From the IMG/VR virus record IMGVR_UViG_3300047322_000171, positions 1 to 28,555 of that record: a DNA stretch of 28,555 nt. One strand, 5' to 3'. Under the pieces are notes generated by a model that saw nothing but the letters and a program-made list of their open reading frames with translations, did no database searches and was not told the DNA's origin. The stretch comes from a virus. Both the position numbers and the translations under genes were made by a program. Positions 54 to 26,133 of the stretch are shown one piece after another (position 1 is the first letter of the stretch; every line of letters begins with the position of its first letter).

Positions 54-551
54 ATGGGAAAACGCGGCCCGCCGCCAAAACCGACGCATTTGAAATTGTT
101 GCAGGGCAACCCGGGAAAACAGGCGATTAACCGCAACGAGCCGCAGCCGGAACGCGCCTCGACGCTGCCGCCCGCGCCGGGAATGCTCACCGGCTACGCG
201 GTCGAGGAATGGGATCGCGCGGTTGCCGAGCTTTATCACATGCGGTTGCTGGCCCGTGTCGACACGCAAATACTGGCCGCGTATTGCACGAGCTATTCGA
301 TCTGGCGCACGGCGGTCGAAACGTTCGACGCGAGCGCCAAGCATTTCCCCGACATGCACCGGCTCGTCGTACGCAAGGCGAACGGCGATCCGATACAGAA
401 TCCGTTGCTCCGCACCATCCACGACGCCGCCGCCGCGATGGCGCGGTATGCCGCAGCGTTCGGATTCACACCGGCCGCAAGATCCAGCATCATCGTTCCG
501 CGTGAGGGCCAAGGTGCCGAGAGCAAATTCACCGGCCTACTCTCGGGCTAG
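54..551 (+). CDS. terS: Phage terminase small subunit, P27 family
   Basis: This is the DNA-recognition subunit of the packaging motor. It binds phage DNA and hands it to the large subunit. The start MGKRGPPPKPTHLKLLQGNPGK is typical of the P27 family: a basic, proline-rich N-terminus with the 'LKLLQGNPGK' signature. A helical core with 'EEWDRAVAELYHMRLLARVD' follows, and the length of 165 aa is normal. The start has an AAAGGA ribosome binding site 9 nt upstream. The 3' end overlaps the start of the large subunit gene by about 40-50 nt in another frame, as expected for a translationally coupled terS-terL pair. The identification rests on sequence recognition and on the adjacent terL. Confidence 0.93.
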   Translation: MGKRGPPPKPTHLKLLQGNPGKQAINRNEPQPERASTLPPAPGMLTGYAVEEWDRAVAELYHMRLLARVDTQILAAYCTSYSIWRTAVETFDASAKHFPDMHRLVVRKANGDPIQNPLLRTIHDAAAAMARYAAAFGFTPAARSSIIVPREGQGAESKFTGLLSG

Positions 552-2145
552 GCGTACCGCCAAGGGCAAAGAGCGGGCCGCCAAGGTAATCCGCTTTATC
601 GAAAAGCTGATCGTTCCGAGTGGGCGCGGTGCGGGCAAGCCGTTCGTTTTGCAGAAATGGCAACGCGAGTTCATCGAGGACATTTACGAGCCGACTCTGC
701 CGGATGGCCGCCGCGTTGTGCGGCGCGCGATCCTGTCAATGGCGCGCAAGAACGGCAAGACGGCGCTCATTGCGGCGATTGCGCTGGCGCACCTGATCGG
801 CCCCGAGGCGATCCCGAACGGCGAGATTTATTCGGCCGCCAACGACCGCGATCAGGCGTCGATTATATTCAAGTTCGCGCGCCAGATCGTCGAGGCCGAC
901 GCCGAGCTGCGCGCAAAGATCGAGATTATCAACTCGACCAAGACAATGCTGGTGCGCTCGCTCGGCGCGATCTACCGGGCGATCTCGTCCGAGGCCGGGA
1001 CCAAGCACGGCTACATGCCGAGCCTCGTGATCTACGACGAGCTGGCGCAAGCCAAGAACCGCGATCTCTACGACGTGCTCGACACGAGTTTCGGGGCGTG
1101 CGCCGAGCCGTTGTTCATCGTGCTCTCGACGCAATCGAACGACCCCGAGCATATCCTTTCGCAATTGATCGACGACGGGCAAGCGGGCGTCGACCCGACC
1201 ATCGTGTGTCACCTGTTCGCGGCCGCCGAGGGCTGCGATCTCGACGACAAGCGGCAATGGAAAGAGGCGAACCCGGCGCTCGGCGTGTTCCGCGACTACG
1301 CCGACCTCGAGTCCGCTATCGACAAGGCCAAGCGAATGCCCGCCGACGAGCCCAAGGTGCGAAACCTTTTGCTCAATCAGCGGATCTCGCCGTCGGCGAT
1401 CCTGATAAGCCGCCGCGAGTGGATGGCGTGTGCGGGCCGCGCCGAGTTCACGGATGGAGAGGCGGTCTATCTTGCCCTTGACCTATCGAACACGCTCGAC
1501 CTGTCGGCTTTGCTCATGGGCTCGGACGATGACGTCACGCGTGTTAAGGCGTTTTTCTGGAAGCCCGCCGACCAGCTCGCCGAGCAATCGTTCCGCGACT
1601 TTGGATCGGGTAACTACCGTTACGTCGAATGGGAAAAAGCGGGTTATCTCGAAGCGCCGCGCGGCCGCTCCATCGACAAGGAAGCAATAGCGCGCCGCAT
1701 CGCCGAATTGTGCGGGCGCTACCATGTGCGCGCGATGGCCTACGACCGCTGGCGCATGGATGATATCTTGCGCGAGTTCGACCGCATCGGTTTCCGCGCC
1801 TACAAGGACGCCACCGACGACGACCCGGCCAAGCTATCCAAGAGCTTGCCGCGCGAGGGCTTGCGGCTGGTGCCGTGGGGCCAAGGGTTCAAGGACATGG
1901 CCCCGGCCATTGATGCGCTTGAGAGCGCGGTCGTCGAGCGCAAGCTCATGCACCCGAACAACCCGTGTCTCAACTGGAACATGGCGAACGCCATCGCCGT
2001 GATGGATCCAGCGGGCGGCCGCAAACTCGACAAGGACAAGTCGCGTTTCCGTATCGACGGCGCGGTCGCGCTGGCGATGCTCATGGGCTTACGCGCCCGC
2101 CATCGGCAACAGCGCGTCGTCGATCTGGAAACTTTAATCGGATAA
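514..2145 (+). CDS. terL: Phage terminase large subunit (ATPase/nuclease)
   Basis: This is the packaging motor ATPase and headful/cos nuclease that docks on the portal. The protein of about 543 aa has a variant Walker A motif ARKNGKT (Lys82 counted from the start chosen here), a Walker B motif LVIYDELAQ (Asp175-Glu176) and an ATPase coupling segment 'LSTQSN'. The C-terminal nuclease part has acidic positions in 'LALDLSNTLDLS', 'YDRWRMDD' and 'IDGAVALAM'. The frame is open upstream to 223, but that part overlaps terS. GTG 514 was chosen because GAGGG lies 5 nt upstream; GTG 502 is a plausible alternative. The protein belongs to the P27/HK97-like group of large terminases. Confidence 0.95.
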   Translation: MPRANSPAYSRARRTAKGKERAAKVIRFIEKLIVPSGRGAGKPFVLQKWQREFIEDIYEPTLPDGRRVVRRAILSMARKNGKTALIAAIALAHLIGPEAIPNGEIYSAANDRDQASIIFKFARQIVEADAELRAKIEIINSTKTMLVRSLGAIYRAISSEAGTKHGYMPSLVIYDELAQAKNRDLYDVLDTSFGACAEPLFIVLSTQSNDPEHILSQLIDDGQAGVDPTIVCHLFAAAEGCDLDDKRQWKEANPALGVFRDYADLESAIDKAKRMPADEPKVRNLLLNQRISPSAILISRREWMACAGRAEFTDGEAVYLALDLSNTLDLSALLMGSDDDVTRVKAFFWKPADQLAEQSFRDFGSGNYRYVEWEKAGYLEAPRGRSIDKEAIARRIAELCGRYHVRAMAYDRWRMDDILREFDRIGFRAYKDATDDDPAKLSKSLPREGLRLVPWGQGFKDMAPAIDALESAVVERKLMHPNNPCLNWNMANAIAVMDPAGGRKLDKDKSRFRIDGAVALAMLMGLRARHRQQRVVDLETLIG

Positions 2146-2163
2146 CCAAAGGAAACACCGAAC

Positions 2164-2895
2164 ATGAGATGCCTCTTTGCTATTGCTTTCGCCGCCGTCT
2201 TGCTCGTTGCCGTTCCGGCGCGCGCCGACACGGTTAACAATCTGAGTATCGGCGCGCTGCCGAATCCCGTTCCGCAATCGTTGAGCAACCCGTGCATCAT
2301 TTGCGGCACGACGGCACCGGGACAACCGGCGAATTTTGGTTATAACAATTTCTCGAATACCGGCAGCGATACCTCGTTCAATACGTTCTCGACCGACATT
2401 CTCGGCGGTGGCCCGTTGCTCGGTAATCTGGAAGCGAACGCGTTGCCGTACAGCGGCGCATTGCTCGACGCGTTCCTGCAAGGCGCTGGCGACGTATCGC
2501 TCAAGTTCGGCGTCGCCATCGACGTGAACACCGCACACAACGGCGAGACGCTTGAGCAATTCCAATTGATCGACCTGTCGCTGCCAGCCGGTCAGCGCGT
2601 GATATTTGATATCGACGGCCCGATTGCCTTGCCCGATATTAACAACGGCAACGGCAAGGGCGACTACCTGATAACCGGGTTTGATCTCTCCAACGTCAGC
2701 GCGGGCGACCTGTTGCTGTTTCATGCCTCATGGTCGGGCGCATCCGACGGCGCGGAAAGTTTCTACATCGTGCCGTTGCTGGCGACCGATACGACGCCGA
2801 TCCCCGGCGCGGCGTGGCTGTTCGTGAGCGGCCTCGGCGTGCTCACCATGCTCGGCCGCCGCCGCCAACGCACCCCGATAGCGGGCCGAACCTGA
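2164..2895 (+). CDS. Exported protein with VPLPA/PEP-CTERM-like sorting signal
   Basis: This 243-aa protein has a clear Sec signal peptide: a hydrophobic core at residues 4-18 and a predicted cleavage after Ala-Arg-Ala (residue 21). Its C-terminus is an exosortase-type tripartite signal: the motif PIPGAAWLF starting at Pro212, a hydrophobic helix to about residue 230, then the basic cluster RRRQR (232-236). The middle is Asn/Gly/Ser-rich and beta-strand-like, with a CIIC pair at residues 44-47, and resembles secreted PEP-CTERM proteins. In known systems such proteins are exported, then cleaved and anchored or released by an exosortase. None is encoded here, so a host enzyme would be needed. 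AAAGGA lies 10 nt before the ATG, and the gene sits 18 nt after terL in the same direction, so it is probably cotranscribed. Function is unknown; a moron acting on the host surface is an inference. Confidence 0.85.
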   Translation: MRCLFAIAFAAVLLVAVPARADTVNNLSIGALPNPVPQSLSNPCIICGTTAPGQPANFGYNNFSNTGSDTSFNTFSTDILGGGPLLGNLEANALPYSGALLDAFLQGAGDVSLKFGVAIDVNTAHNGETLEQFQLIDLSLPAGQRVIFDIDGPIALPDINNGNGKGDYLITGFDLSNVSAGDLLLFHASWSGASDGAESFYIVPLLATDTTPIPGAAWLFVSGLGVLTMLGRRRQRTPIAGRT

Positions 2896-2989: not shown

Positions 2990-3331
2990 ATGCCGCTCGC
3001 AATTGTTGACGGCCCGACCATCGCCAAAGGTGAATCGCTTTCCGATGGCGTCGATTGCTCGGCCGGAAAGATCGTTCGCATTACCGTGCCGCAAGAGTTC
3101 ACCGACGCTAACCTGACGTTCCAAGTGTCGACCGACGGCAATTTCTACAACGACCTCTACAACAGCGACGGCGAGGAAATCACCATCGCGCCCGAGCCCG
3201 ATACGGCGATCATCGTCAGCGAGGTTTGGACGCGCTCGATTGTGTTCATCAAATTCCGCTCGGGCACGCGCACGCACCCGGTCGAGCAAGACGAGGATTG
3301 CAAGTTCGCCATCGCAATCGAAACCCCATAA
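2990..3331 (+). CDS. Small phage protein of unknown function
   Basis: This 113-aa acidic protein begins MPLAIVDGPTIAKGESLSDG. Its pattern of short hydrophobic strands (IVRITV, LTFQVS, AIIVSEVW, SIVFIKF) suggests a compact beta-sandwich. GGAG lies 7 nt upstream of the ATG. The position between the terminase and capsid genes suggests a minor virion or decoration-type protein, but I recognise no motif that fixes a role. It is the last plus-strand gene before the minus-strand pair and is followed by a hairpin at 3336-3357. Confidence 0.8.
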   Translation: MPLAIVDGPTIAKGESLSDGVDCSAGKIVRITVPQEFTDANLTFQVSTDGNFYNDLYNSDGEEITIAPEPDTAIIVSEVWTRSIVFIKFRSGTRTHPVEQDEDCKFAIAIETP

Positions 3332-4590: not shown

Positions 4591-6693
4591 ATGCCGACAA
4601 AAGACGACGATATGCAGCCCGATGATGATGAGAGTTATTTAGATTGGATGGATCGTTGCGGCGACTCGCTCGACGAGGATACCTGCCAAAACATTTGGGA
4701 TGAAAAACACGGCAACAACGGCATTGTGATCCGCAAGACACACGCCTCGACGAACAAGGCCGACGGCCTCGACTTTGTGTTGAGCGACGAGACGCCGGAT
4801 CGCTACGGCGACGTTATCGCCGCCGACGGCTGGATCCTCAACAATTTCAAGCGCAACCCGATTGCCTTGTTCGGGCATAACTCAAGTTTTCCGATTGGGA
4901 GCTGGAAGGATCTGCACGTCGAGAACGGCGCGCTACGCGGACACTTGCAGCTCGCCCCGGCTGGCACGAGCGAACGGATCGACGAGATCCGCAAGCTGGT
5001 CGAGGCCGGGATCTTGCGGGCGGTATCGGTCGGTTTCCTGCCGGTCGAATCGCGCGCGAAATCCAAGACCGAGCCCGGCGAGCTATACGTCAAGCAAGAG
5101 CTGATCGAAACGTCGCTTGTGTCGATCCCGGCGAACCCGAACGCGCTCGCGGTTGCCAAGAATCTGCACGTCTCCGACGCAACGCTGCAAATGGTGTTCG
5201 GCAAGCACGCCGTCAGAAACACCGCGCGCAGTGTGCGCCGTCACGGCGAGAACGCCGAAACCTCTCGCAATGGAAAGTCGAAACCCATGTCAACGCTCGC
5301 ACAACGCATCAAGGATGCGGAGCAACGACTCCTCGAAAGCCGCGACAAGCTCTCGGCACATTTGGACAAGTCAGACGACAACAACGTCACCGACGCCGAC
5401 CTCGAAACCCGGCAAACGCTCAACACCGAGATCGTCACGGTCGAACGCACGCTCGCCAGCTTGCGCGAGTCCGAAAAGCATCTCGGACAATCGAGCGACG
5501 ACGGCGGCAGCCGTGCGCTCATCGTGTCAAACGCCGAGCGCGCAAAGAACGGCACGGCGCTGTCGCCGCGTCCGTTTAGCGTCTCGCCGAAAAAGGTATC
5601 GCCGCTCGACTTGCTTTGTCGGGTTGGCGCTTTGCAGGTCGTCGCGCACCGCGAACGCAAGCCGGTCGACGATATCCGCCGCATGGTGTACGGCGACGAC
5701 GAGGCGACCAAGGCCGTGCTCGAATGGCAAATGAAAGCCGCAAGCGCGCCCGCAATGACGACCGTCACCGGATGGGCTGCCGAACTCGTGCAGCAAATCG
5801 TCGTCGACTTCATGGCAACGCTCTACCCGAAAGCGATCTACCCGCGCTTTTCGAGCATGGGTCTGTCGCTGACGTTCGGCCGCAACGGCAAGATCATCAT
5901 TCCGACCCGCTCGCGAACGCCCACAATCGCGGGGTCATTCGTCGGCGAAGGTCTGCCGATCCCCGTGCGTCAAGGCGCGTTCACCTCGCAAAGCCTCACG
6001 CCGAAAAAAATGGCGGTCATTACGACGTGGACCCGGGAAATCGACGAGCATTCGATCCCGGCCATTGAGGGCTTGCTGCGCGACGCGATTCAGACCGATA
6101 CCGCTATCGCTCTCGATAGCGTCCTGATCGACACAAACCCGGCGACCGCGATCCGGCCCGCCGGTATCCTCAACGGCGTCTCCGGCTTGACGCCGGTTGC
6201 GGGCGGCGGCTTTACGGCGCTCACGGGCGATATCAAGGCGCTCTCGGGCGCGTTGCTCACCGGCACGCTCGGCAACGTGCGCAATCCGTGCTGGCTGATG
6301 AACCCGCAACAGGTCAACAGCGCGGGCCTCGTGGCAGCACCGGGCGCGGGCGTGTTCCCGTTCCGCGACGAGATCTCGCGCGGCAGCCTCGGCGGCTGGC
6401 CAATCATCGACTCCGGCACCGTGCCGCTCGGCACCGTGATCGCGGTCGACGCCGCCGATTTTGTCAGCGTCACCGGCGACGGGCCTCGGCTGGAGGTTTC
6501 GGATACGGCAACACTTCACATGGAGGATACTAGCCCGAGCGACATTTCGACGGCGGGCTCGCCCGCTGTTGTTGCGTATCCGGCGAAATCCATGTTCCAG
6601 ACCGATATGCTGGCGCTCCGGTTAATCATGCCGATCAACTGGGCGCTCCGGCGTACCGGCGTCGTCGCATGGGTGGCCGGGGTCACGTGGTAA
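4591..6693 (+). CDS. Fused HK97-type prohead protease and major capsid protein
   Basis: This 700-aa protein joins two virion functions. Residues about 45-190 are a U35-type prohead protease, with the catalytic His in 'LFGHNSSFPIGSW' (His96) and the catalytic Ser in 'AVSVGFLP' (Ser146), followed by 'ETSLVSIPANPNALA'. Residues about 235-310 are a charged coiled-coil, scaffold-like delta region (MSTLAQRIKDAEQRLLESRD). The remainder, about 345-690, is the HK97-fold capsid protein, with 'VGEGLPIPVRQGAFTSQSLTPKK' typical of the phage_capsid family. ATG 4591 was chosen for GGGAG 8 nt upstream; GTG 4540 is open but lacks a good site. An in-frame ATG at 5287 could start the capsid part alone. The protease would release the capsid subunit during prohead maturation. 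Confidence 0.92.
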   Translation: MPTKDDDMQPDDDESYLDWMDRCGDSLDEDTCQNIWDEKHGNNGIVIRKTHASTNKADGLDFVLSDETPDRYGDVIAADGWILNNFKRNPIALFGHNSSFPIGSWKDLHVENGALRGHLQLAPAGTSERIDEIRKLVEAGILRAVSVGFLPVESRAKSKTEPGELYVKQELIETSLVSIPANPNALAVAKNLHVSDATLQMVFGKHAVRNTARSVRRHGENAETSRNGKSKPMSTLAQRIKDAEQRLLESRDKLSAHLDKSDDNNVTDADLETRQTLNTEIVTVERTLASLRESEKHLGQSSDDGGSRALIVSNAERAKNGTALSPRPFSVSPKKVSPLDLLCRVGALQVVAHRERKPVDDIRRMVYGDDEATKAVLEWQMKAASAPAMTTVTGWAAELVQQIVVDFMATLYPKAIYPRFSSMGLSLTFGRNGKIIIPTRSRTPTIAGSFVGEGLPIPVRQGAFTSQSLTPKKMAVITTWTREIDEHSIPAIEGLLRDAIQTDTAIALDSVLIDTNPATAIRPAGILNGVSGLTPVAGGGFTALTGDIKALSGALLTGTLGNVRNPCWLMNPQQVNSAGLVAAPGAGVFPFRDEISRGSLGGWPIIDSGTVPLGTVIAVDAADFVSVTGDGPRLEVSDTATLHMEDTSPSDISTAGSPAVVAYPAKSMFQTDMLALRLIMPINWALRRTGVVAWVAGVTW

Positions 6694-7129: not shown

Positions 7130-9355
<2,226 letters not shown>

Positions 9356-10895: not shown

Positions 10896-11542
10896 CGCAA
10901 ACCCCGGCGCTGATTATGCGCGATGCGATCTACGAGCGCGTTAAGGCGATGCCGTTCTTTGCCGGGTTCACGTTCGCAAAAAACAAGATGCTGCGCGTGC
11001 AACCCGCCGATCTGCCCTATTGCGGCATTTACAAGATCAACGAGTTGATGCTGCCCGAGGGCGACCCGAACGCGGGCGATATCCGCTTGCGCGATTCGGC
11101 GCGCTACGGCTTTTCGGTAATCATCGTCGACAATGAGAACGAGGACGGCGAGGCGACGCTCGATGCGGCGTTCGCCGAGATCACGAACGGCTTGTTAACC
11201 GACACGACGCTGACCGGGTTCAATCATAAATTGCTGCAAGGGATCACGCGGGTTGAGTCAATGAACGTTTACGGCTCGGTCGCGCTCGACAACGAAACGC
11301 CGGTGCTCGAATTGCAAGTCGATATCACCGCCGACCTCGGCACCGCGATATTCAAGCCAACCATCGTCGACGACTTTATCACGCTGCACGTCGACGCCCG
11401 ACCGATCCAAAACCCCGACGCACCTATCGTCGAGATGCAATGGAATATGCAGACCGGCGAGATCAGCACAAAAGCGAGGAAGCCAAATGGCAAAAATAAA
11501 AGTGACACCAAACCGCGACGACGTGCCGCCGCATCCGATTGA
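10892..11542 (+). CDS. Tail completion/terminator-like protein
   Basis: This 216-aa protein starts with an ATGA overlap with the previous gene. The N-terminal part 'ALIMRDAIYERVKAMPFFAG' and the beta-rich centre (YGFSVIIVDNENEDGEATLD, then LDNETPVLELQVDITADLG) follow the layout of tail completion or terminator proteins in phages with this gene order. A basic, disordered tail follows (KPNGKNKSDTKPRRRAAASD). The last 56 nt overlap the start of the DUF2635 gene. The role is inferred mainly from position. Confidence 0.65.
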   Translation: MTQTPALIMRDAIYERVKAMPFFAGFTFAKNKMLRVQPADLPYCGIYKINELMLPEGDPNAGDIRLRDSARYGFSVIIVDNENEDGEATLDAAFAEITNGLLTDTTLTGFNHKLLQGITRVESMNVYGSVALDNETPVLELQVDITADLGTAIFKPTIVDDFITLHVDARPIQNPDAPIVEMQWNMQTGEISTKARKPNGKNKSDTKPRRRAAASD

Positions 11543-11764: not shown

Positions 11765-12451
11765 ATGCACGAGTACGTCGTTTATTGGCTGTTCGACGAA
11801 ACATGCGTTTCGCCGCAACGACACGGCTACGTCGGCGTAACCCACAATCTAACACGGCGAACGCGTGAGCACCGTCGCCGTGGCCGCTTCCCACCAACCG
11901 TCAAGGTGCGGGTGCTCACTCAAGGGACACTCGCCGAGTGTCGCGCCGTCGAATGGTTATTGCGGCCCGTGTCGTTCATCGGCTGGAATTTCGCGGTCGG
12001 CGGCAAACCGTCAGTTAATCACACCGACGAGGTGCGTGCGAAATTGAGGGCCGCGCAGCTCGGGCGAAAGTATTCGGCAGAAAGCATCGAACGGCGGCGC
12101 GTCGCCTCTCGCGGCCGAACAAATAAAGGTCGCCTCGGTCAAAAAAAATCGCCGGAGGAGCGCGCCAAAATTGCAGCGGCGCAGATCGGCCGAACAGCGT
12201 CGGAAGCAACCCGCGCAAAAATCGCCGAAAGCAAACGCGGCAATAAAAACAGGCTCGGCAAACATCACTCCGAAACGACGCGCGAACTAATCCGACTCAA
12301 GAAATCCGGTGTTCCGATTCATTCCGACGAGCACAAGCGCGCACTCGCGGAGCGGATGAAGGGGAACGCTTACACAAAGGGCAAGCCGTGGTCGGCCGCC
12401 CGTCGTCTTGCATCAATTGAAAGGAGATCACGTCATGCCGATTTCGTTTAA
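11765..12451 (+). CDS. Free-standing GIY-YIG homing endonuclease with NUMOD3 repeats
   Basis: This 228-aa protein carries the GIY-YIG core as 'EYVVYWLF' (Tyr7) and 'HGYVGVTHNLTRRTREH' (Tyr22, Gly24, a catalytic Arg at 31/32, His36), then 'AECRAVEWLL' with the metal-binding Glu, probably Glu63, and 'GWNFAVGG'. Residues 84-215 hold four NUMOD3-type DNA-binding repeats (for example TDEVRAKLRAAQLGRKYS and SPEERAKIAAAQIG). Such enzymes cut a related genome lacking the insertion and are copied in by repair. No intron or intein border is visible, so it is an intergenic, free-standing form. It has no clear ribosome binding site, and a terminator hairpin lies directly upstream. Its last 17 nt overlap the sheath gene. 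Confidence 0.92.
   Translation: MHEYVVYWLFDETCVSPQRHGYVGVTHNLTRRTREHRRRGRFPPTVKVRVLTQGTLAECRAVEWLLRPVSFIGWNFAVGGKPSVNHTDEVRAKLRAAQLGRKYSAESIERRRVASRGRTNKGRLGQKKSPEERAKIAAAQIGRTASEATRAKIAESKRGNKNRLGKHHSETTRELIRLKKSGVPIHSDEHKRALAERMKGNAYTKGKPWSAARRLASIERRSRHADFV
12420..12434 (+). promoter_or_regulatory. Strong ribosome binding site of the sheath gene inside the endonuclease gene
   Basis: AAAGGAG lies in the 3' coding end of the homing endonuclease gene, 8 nt before the sheath ATG at 12435. It fixes the sheath start and ties the endonuclease 3' border to expression of an essential tail gene. Confidence 0.85.
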
Positions 12452-24373: not shown

Positions 24374-24721
24374 ATGGCAACCGTCAACATCACGGTCGAG
24401 AACGACGCGGATTTTTACCGCGCGTTTCAGTATGTCGCGGCAGACACCAGCGCCCCTATCAACATAACTGGCGGCACCATGGAAATGATGCTGCGCCGCC
24501 ACGCAGAGGATGCGGAAGCATTGCTGCGGCTTGCAACCGACACCGGAGAAATCATCATTACCAATGCCGCGCTCGGTACTTTCACGGTGATGATTGCACA
24601 GCCAGTGTTAGAACGGCTCGGAGTTGGCAGTTTCGACCAATCAAACATTCTGACGCTTGGCGGCCTGAAAATAAAAGTATGGTCGGGCACCCTGACCAAC
24701 AATGCGGGGCCGACGCGATGA
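24374..24721 (+). CDS. Small tail-region protein of unknown function
   Basis: This 115-aa protein begins MATVNITVENDADFYRAFQY. Two beta-rich segments (NITGGTMEMMLRRHAED and EIIITNAALGTFTVMIAQP) suggest a small all-beta fold. It resembles short proteins found beside baseplate and fibre genes, some annotated as receptor-binding accessory domains, but no clear signature is present. The stop overlaps the next start (ATGA), which couples it to the collagen-like fibre gene. Confidence 0.75.
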   Translation: MATVNITVENDADFYRAFQYVAADTSAPINITGGTMEMMLRRHAEDAEALLRLATDTGEIIITNAALGTFTVMIAQPVLERLGVGSFDQSNILTLGGLKIKVWSGTLTNNAGPTR

Positions 24722-26133
24722 GCGCGGTCGAGATCATCAATGGTGAGGATCAGTTAAGCATTGTGCCGCAAGCGGATGACGCGACCGTTGTCGTCATGGC
24801 CGAACAGGATATTACGTTCGCCATTGAGAGTGGTGAACAGGGACCACCGGGGCCACCGGGGCCGCAGGGGCCGGTCGGTGATGCCTCAATCGTGCCGGGG
24901 CCAGTAGGGCCAGCAGGGCCAACGGGGCCGCAAGGACCACCCGGCGTTAACGGCAGCGGTACTCCCGGCACTGTAGCGCCGATCATGGATGGCACCGCGA
25001 CGGTCGGCACTTCAACATCGTTTTCGCGTCAGGACCATATCCATCCAAGCGATACGTCGCGCGTTGCCAAGACCGGCGACACAATGGCCGGACATCTCTC
25101 ATTGCCGACGGGGCCAGCCGCCGCCAATGCCGTGCGAAAAGATTATGTTGATGCCGCCGATGCGACGTTGACAACCTCTGTCAACGGCAAAGTTGCCAAG
25201 GCTGGCGATATTATGACGGGTCAGTTGCAACTTAATTTTAGCAACCCGTCGCTGGCGATCAACAAGACGGCAAGCGGGCAAAACAATCTTATTTTAGGAT
25301 GCACAAACGGATTGTCTAATCAGCGGTGGGCCATCATTCCCGGCGACAACACCGCCGAAGGCGGCTCAAATAGCGGCAGCGATTTTTCAATCTATCGATA
25401 TAATGATGGTGGCTCTCCTATTGAAGCGTCGCTTCAGATAAATCGCGCAAGCGGGGCTGTTGCGATTACACAAACGATTGCCTCGGCGGGGTTCTACATC
25501 CCGACTCAAAATGCCTCTTACATTTCCGACGCCTCAAACACCTATATGATGTTTAATGGGCCGAACACTTGTTATCTCGCCTACAACAAGTCGAACGGCA
25601 ATCTTACTTATGTTGTTAACTCAGGAACGAAGGCAACTATCGACGGCAATGGAAACCTTTATGTCGTTGCGACCGGCTACAAGCCCGGTGGCGGTCCGTG
25701 GGACGCCACGTCCGACAGCCGCATCAAAAACGTCGAGGGCGAATATACGACCGGCCTTGATGCCGTTGCTCAGTTGCGGCCGATTACCTACTCATTCAAA
25801 GGCAATGACACGCCAGAACTGCCAGCGCACATAACAACACCATTTGATACCGAGACAAAAGAAGCGCCGACCGTTCCTTATCCCAACAGCCCGCATTATC
25901 AGGCGGCGCTTGATGCCAAGACATTTCATGGACTGATCGCGCAAGAGGTTGAAGCAATCTTTCCTGAAATGGTGACGCAGCGCGTCGGCTATATTGACGG
26001 TGAACCTGTCACTGACCTGCGCGATCTCAATACAACGCCGTTAATTTTTGCGCTGGTCAATGCCATCAAGGAATTGAAGACCCGCGTCGAAACGTTGGAG
26101 AGCGCAGCCGCGCAGTCGCGCAAACGGAAATGA
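24718..26133 (+). CDS. Collagen-like tail fibre with self-cleaving S74 chaperone
   Basis: This 471-aa protein has three parts. Residues 42-79 are a short collagen-like run of Gly-Pro-rich triplets ([13 protein letters not shown] and [16 protein letters not shown]). The middle contains repeated '[20 protein letters not shown]' and '[13 protein letters not shown]' motifs found in many fibre stalks. The end is a peptidase S74 intramolecular chaperone: 'SDSRIKN' with the Ser332/Lys337 dyad, then '[10 protein letters not shown]', '[16 protein letters not shown]', and a C-terminal coiled coil ([15 protein letters not shown]). In this family the trimer folds, then the chaperone cuts itself off before the Ser. 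The start at 24718 overlaps the previous stop; the open frame from 24679 was rejected. Confidence 0.92.

Follow-up and report, generated by a model that had tools for sequence, protein, structure and literature searches.

Why would a bacteriophage carry, directly behind its large terminase gene, a protein that looks like a substrate of the exosortase sorting pathway? The function of most PEP-CTERM proteins is itself open. The class was defined by Haft et al. in 2006 from a signal peptide, a motif, a helix and a basic end, and enzymes of the EpsH family were proposed to cleave this motif from the periplasmic side (PMC1569441). We analyzed a complete IMG/VR record, IMGVR_UViG_3300047322_000171, whose 28,555 bases are referred to here as the window. 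Its genes include terS, terL, a joint prohead protease and capsid ORF, portal, tail sheath, baseplate and fibre, and this gene content marks the record as a fragment of a contractile-tailed phage. The ORF of interest and the features around it are as follows.

514–2145, plus strand: terL, large terminase subunit and upstream neighbour of the ORF at 2164–2895 (PF20441, 2.2e-26, 93 bits; PF03354, 4.5e-20, 72.5 bits); the start codon at 514 is that of the ORF caller only.
2148–2153, plus strand: AAAGGA, a good ribosome-binding site, read from the sequence; GGAG/AGGAG-like sites lie at the equivalent place in relatives.
2164–2895, plus strand: exported protein of 243 aa with a C-terminal signal of exosortase type, ATG start; at least 78 viral contigs have homologues.
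2164–2226, plus strand: predicted Sec signal peptide, residues 1–21, cut after A-R-A; called by sequence inspection, with the pattern retained in homologues.
2227–2781, plus strand: conserved mature core, residues 22–206, a predicted beta-sandwich (AF2 core model, pLDDT 82.9, pTM 0.84).
2293–2304, plus strand: CxxC (C44, C47), a probable disulfide, invariant in all 50 rows of core alignment A3.
2644–2664, plus strand: NGNGKGD loop (NGxGxxD), residues 161–167, possibly calcium-binding; G162, G164 and D167 are invariant in the 50-row core alignment A3.
2797–2871, plus strand: tripartite sorting signal, made up of PIP (2797–2805), a hydrophobic helix (2806–2856) and RRRQR (2857–2871); supported by a TIGR03370 match and an AF2 helix.
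2990–3331, plus strand: 113-aa protein of unknown function, a recurrent neighbour close to the exported-protein ORF in near-relative loci.

The terL stop codon occupies 2143–2145, and the ORF begins 18 nt after it, as originally noted. The terS gene beside the ORF matches TIGR01558 (64.4 bits). The 113-aa protein, for which no Pfam or PHROG match was found, also adjoins terL in phages without the exported-protein ORF, and the order of the two genes is inverted in contigs L013 and L044. A promoter scan around the ORF found none. PEP-CTERM genes of Proteobacteria usually have a sigma-54-type upstream site, which is not required (PMC1569441); such sites numbered 0 in 65 upstream regions of the phage genes, with 0.15 expected. 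Elsewhere in the window, a single 700-aa reading frame (4591–6693) combines the prohead protease (PF04586) with the major capsid protein (PF05065), and a probable homing endonuclease with a NUMOD3 motif (11765–12451; PF07460, 51.4 bits) is inserted ahead of the tail sheath gene. Two proteins (8471–9355 and 24718–26133) contain collagen-like repeats, one matching at 56.4 bits and the other more weakly, below the cut-off; the second ends in a C-terminal Peptidase_S74 chaperone domain.

The N-terminus of the window protein, MRCLFAIAFAAVLLVAVPARA|D, shows by inspection the n-, h- and c-regions of a signal peptide and an A-R-A cleavage site. Its C-terminus, T211-PIPGAAWLFVSGLGVLTMLG-RRRQR-TPIAGRT, is tripartite, with the AF2 model placing a helix at residues 216–233. 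TIGR03370, the model for VPLPA-CTERM, matches residues 212–235 with an E value of 5.9e-4 and 19.8 bits, compared to a curated cut-off of 25.35; the C-terminal 64 aa alone score 22.9 bits. For this ORF taken by itself, the sorting-signal match is thus significant yet borderline, and would be no more than suggestive. The tail motif is PIP, not PEP. The tail contains no Cys, and so lacks the invariant Cys of the MYXO-CTERM motif before the helix (PMC11980579).

Relatives bear on whether such a tail could be accidental. Successive IMG/VR scans returned homologues in 38 and then at least 78 contigs, and a scan with the divergent member L221 returned 191, though many carrier contigs are near-duplicates and these counts overstate the number of independent events. 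Complete homologues begin with a signal peptide pattern (called throughout the family by eye plus a simple rule), in line with the proposal that the protein is exported. All 77 homologues with an intact 3′ end have P-x-P, a hydrophobic stretch and a basic cluster, the features of the proposed exosortase-type tail at residues 212–236 in the window. Three flavours can be distinguished among these tails: VPLPA-like (37), PEP (18) and PGPIVGAGxPG (22). In the divergent subfamily the strict tail pattern is present in 71 of 78 members, and the three flavours recur.

Many family members are matched by NCBIfam PEP-CTERM models. TIGR02595, whose cut-off is 16 bits, was passed by 3 of 10 members scored singly (L056, 26.2 bits; L045, 23.3 bits; L047, 20.9 bits). 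The proposed check against curated sorting-signal models thus comes out above the cut-off for these members and below it for the window protein itself. When 2.0 Mb of carrier contigs were scanned for a signal peptide plus tail, 77 ORFs were found, compared to 0 in the same DNA reversed. Because the tail is kept in 77 of 77 homologues and the reversed DNA gives no match, the tail observation exceeds chance; at the level of sequence pattern, it is confirmed and widened by the relatives. Tails of the type PGPIVGAGxPG...RRRR are frequent in these phages (L061, L067, L078, L254 and L255 among them). None of the four that were scored (L067, L078, L254, L255) exceeded the cut-off of a curated sorting-signal model, and this type is possibly an undescribed exosortase signal. 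Searches with the tail only gave no match in phages and, in plasmids, chance-level matches (E 9) that include one protein annotated as VPLPA-CTERM.

Between the two signals lies a core with a different evolutionary regime. For the window compared with L002, L003, L007 and L044, core dN/dS is 0.017–0.092, with 37–51% of synonymous sites changed, whereas the signal peptide and tail give 0.33–0.49. Purifying selection on the core is strong, and both ends preserve pattern, not sequence, as targeting signals generally do. A recent phage-to-phage transfer of the window gene was considered and rejected: the core protein is almost identical to that of L003, yet ∼47% of synonymous sites differ.

No fold match indicates what the core might bind. 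Fold searches against PDB (whole protein and core) and BFVD (whole protein) returned nothing under E 0.001. Partial matches to an Akkermansia enzyme domain (8pxt, E 0.03), as well as to capsid and carbohydrate-binding sandwiches, are too weak to count as evidence, and a PDB sequence search found none. Two pattern sets, derived from alignments A1 and A2, retrieved no core homologue from 84,980 species genomes of bacteria and archaea; these scans need exact short peptide patterns and could miss distant relatives. Nor was one found in INPHARED cultured phages, plasmids or PHROGs. Within the reach of the pattern-based genome scans, the core family appears to be virus-specific, and a bacterial origin of the gene was discarded on the same searches of species genomes, plasmids and cultured phages.

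Tails, by comparison, are exchanged. On the core tree of 42 members, tail flavour switches at least 14 times, where the least possible is 2 and the mean after shuffling is 19.7; L080, for example, sits amid VPLPA-tailed kin. In seven phage lineages there is also a PEP-CTERM-like protein with another core, encoded directly beside the family gene or within a few hundred bases of it in six and ∼1.6 kb off in the seventh (L097). In 7 of 7 lineages the partner has the same tail type as the family member, a modest result by permutation (p 0.01–0.05). Because of this agreement, the data fit tails matched to the host enzyme.

The partners are themselves of several kinds. L052 (9231–9977), L065 (9165–9950) and L082 (9261–9980) encode a second phage PEP-CTERM family with the core LQISA...CDTNL, immediately upstream of the family gene and overlapping it; in L051, similar ends flank a different core. 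The protein at 11036–11608 of L096 belongs to the FxDxF PEP-CTERM family (NF038126; 74.6 bits, above the cut-off), has a PEPxxWA tail and adjoins a family member with a similar tail. Some phage-cassette second proteins thus belong to or resemble FxDxF PEP-CTERM or floc_PepA (NF033554), whereas the window core is a member of neither family, and matches to such models are limited to its tail.

To examine gene position without selecting on the exported-protein trait, we collected loci by a terL-only scan. An ORF with signal peptide and tail adjoins terL in 28 of 62 terL-related loci, each with at least 1.5 kb downstream, although many of these contigs are near-duplicates and independent cases are fewer than 28. 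No such ORF occurs elsewhere in the 553 kb of these loci, and none in the reversed DNA. The gene beside terL frequently has a 1-nt overlap with it or a gap of ∼20 nt. The terL-adjacent position foreseen for homologues is therefore recurrent in many phages, and the slot holds the main family as well as several unrelated cores (L181/L187, L210, L216, L239).

Other phages place the gene elsewhere. In 9 of 13 integrase-bearing carriers it lies within 2 kb of the integrase (chance ∼1e-5), and in others beside an amidase gene. PF03354 terminases are present in only 5 of 50 carrier records, some of which are fragments, indicating differing terminase types. The description of the gene as part of a packaging operon is thus apt for the window's own phage group and does not carry over to relatives in which it sits beside integrase or between modules. 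Slots beside terL or integrase are typical places for cargo genes. The former position suggests late expression in the window's phage group, and the latter suggests lysogenic cargo in other phages.

No exosortase was found in the 50 phage records or the window. For this reason, an exosortase of the host would be needed, as the original prediction had supposed. Our preferred reading, to which we assign a probability of roughly 0.7, is that the gene is phage cargo and encodes a secreted protein that relies on the Sec route and the exosortase of the host. Gene position, the signals at both ends, conservation and tail exchange are read directly from the sequences; the steps beyond them are put forward conditionally. 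In the window's group the protein would be translated along with the late packaging genes or close to them, and in others from an integrase-side cargo site. It would be exported by Sec and its signal peptide removed. The C-terminal helix and Arg cluster would then anchor it to the inner membrane, leaving P-x-P exposed to the periplasm, where an exosortase of the host with matching specificity would cut at this motif. The core would be released or re-anchored to the outer surface or exopolysaccharide. Taken jointly, export, membrane holding and exosortase cutting are steps that we consider probable. The conserved core, once displayed, would have its effect on the envelope or matrix, and the resident phage would most likely profit, through exclusion of competing phages or an altered matrix. 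That it serves superinfection exclusion or receptor shielding in particular is a tentative suggestion.

A simpler account would dispense with the exosortase: after Sec export, the C-terminal helix would fix the protein to the inner membrane, making it a plain tail-anchored protein of the periplasm. A hydrophobic helix with a basic end suffices as a protein anchor, the window protein's own model score is below the cut-off, and no exosortase was seen, the phage records and window being what was searched. However, tails of all three flavours, and proteins with unrelated cores as well, have P-x-P ahead of the helix, several members and partners exceed PEP-CTERM cut-offs, and tails are swapped without the pattern being lost, so we regard this account as unlikely. 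It is more doubtful still that the tail acts as a decoy substrate, occupying the host exosortase and so keeping host proteins, phage receptors possibly among them, from display on the surface. The tail type does seem fitted to the carrier and is common to two proteins of one phage, but the most conserved part of the protein is the core, which a decoy would not need to conserve.

Location between terL and the capsid genes might instead indicate a virion or packaging protein, and the spacing is indeed tight, with 18 nt in the window and an overlap or ∼25 nt or less in many relatives. Yet all complete members have a signal peptide, 34 of the 62 terL-related loci have no such ORF beside terL, the gene lies near integrase or elsewhere in other phages, and no PHROG matches, which makes such a role highly improbable. 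Bacteria are where exosortase-sorted proteins are otherwise found (PMC1569441), which might point to a stray bacterial gene caught by chance or to a misassigned bacterial contig. The data already contradict this: phage genes lie on both sides in an order conserved in many contigs, purifying selection is strong, and no homologue was found in the 84,980 species genomes (two pattern sets) or plasmids. We see hardly any chance of this.

If the exosortase-client reading is right, how does the family compare with known systems? It resembles bacterial PEP-CTERM and VPLPA-CTERM substrates (TIGR02595, TIGR03370) in its Sec signal peptide, P-x-P/PEP motif, single hydrophobic helix and basic end, and in having a core without known relatives beyond its own family. 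It differs in being carried by phages whose records contain no exosortase gene, in a core family that is not found in bacterial genomes, and in the absence of a sigma-54-like upstream site. Phages are known to put proteins on the host surface by lipoprotein or membrane anchors. The nearest functional analogue for the final role would be Ltp, a surface lipoprotein of temperate Streptococcus thermophilus phages that excludes other phages (PMC3952083). Both are phage-encoded proteins for display on the host surface, as predicted for the window family, and many carriers here have an integrase with the gene near it, in keeping with the temperate Ltp phages. Ltp, however, is a lipid-anchored lipoprotein of a Gram-positive host, whereas the window family would have an exosortase-type anchor signal and an unrelated core, and its exclusion role is conjectural. 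The cleavage region VPARA|D has no Cys, and hence lacks the lipobox cysteine of Ltp-type lipoproteins.

Phage use of exosortase sorting is not described in the open-access literature that we searched. Many unrelated soil bacteriophages appear to deliver a protein to the exterior of infected cells by host exosortase sorting. We also think it reasonably likely that phages have a superfamily of exosortase clients of their own, specific to viruses, whose tails are interchangeable and fit each host's exosortase and whose genes occupy cargo sites beside terL or integrase. If this is true, viruses make regular use of the exosortase pathway, and a major sorting pathway for biofilm and exopolysaccharide is tied to phage–host conflict. 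Tail type would then be a readable hint to the host of an uncultured soil phage, and phage proteins with swapped tails would be small, clear substrates for testing exosortase specificity. A PEP-CTERM-like protein selected by phages would also give a testable reason for surface display.
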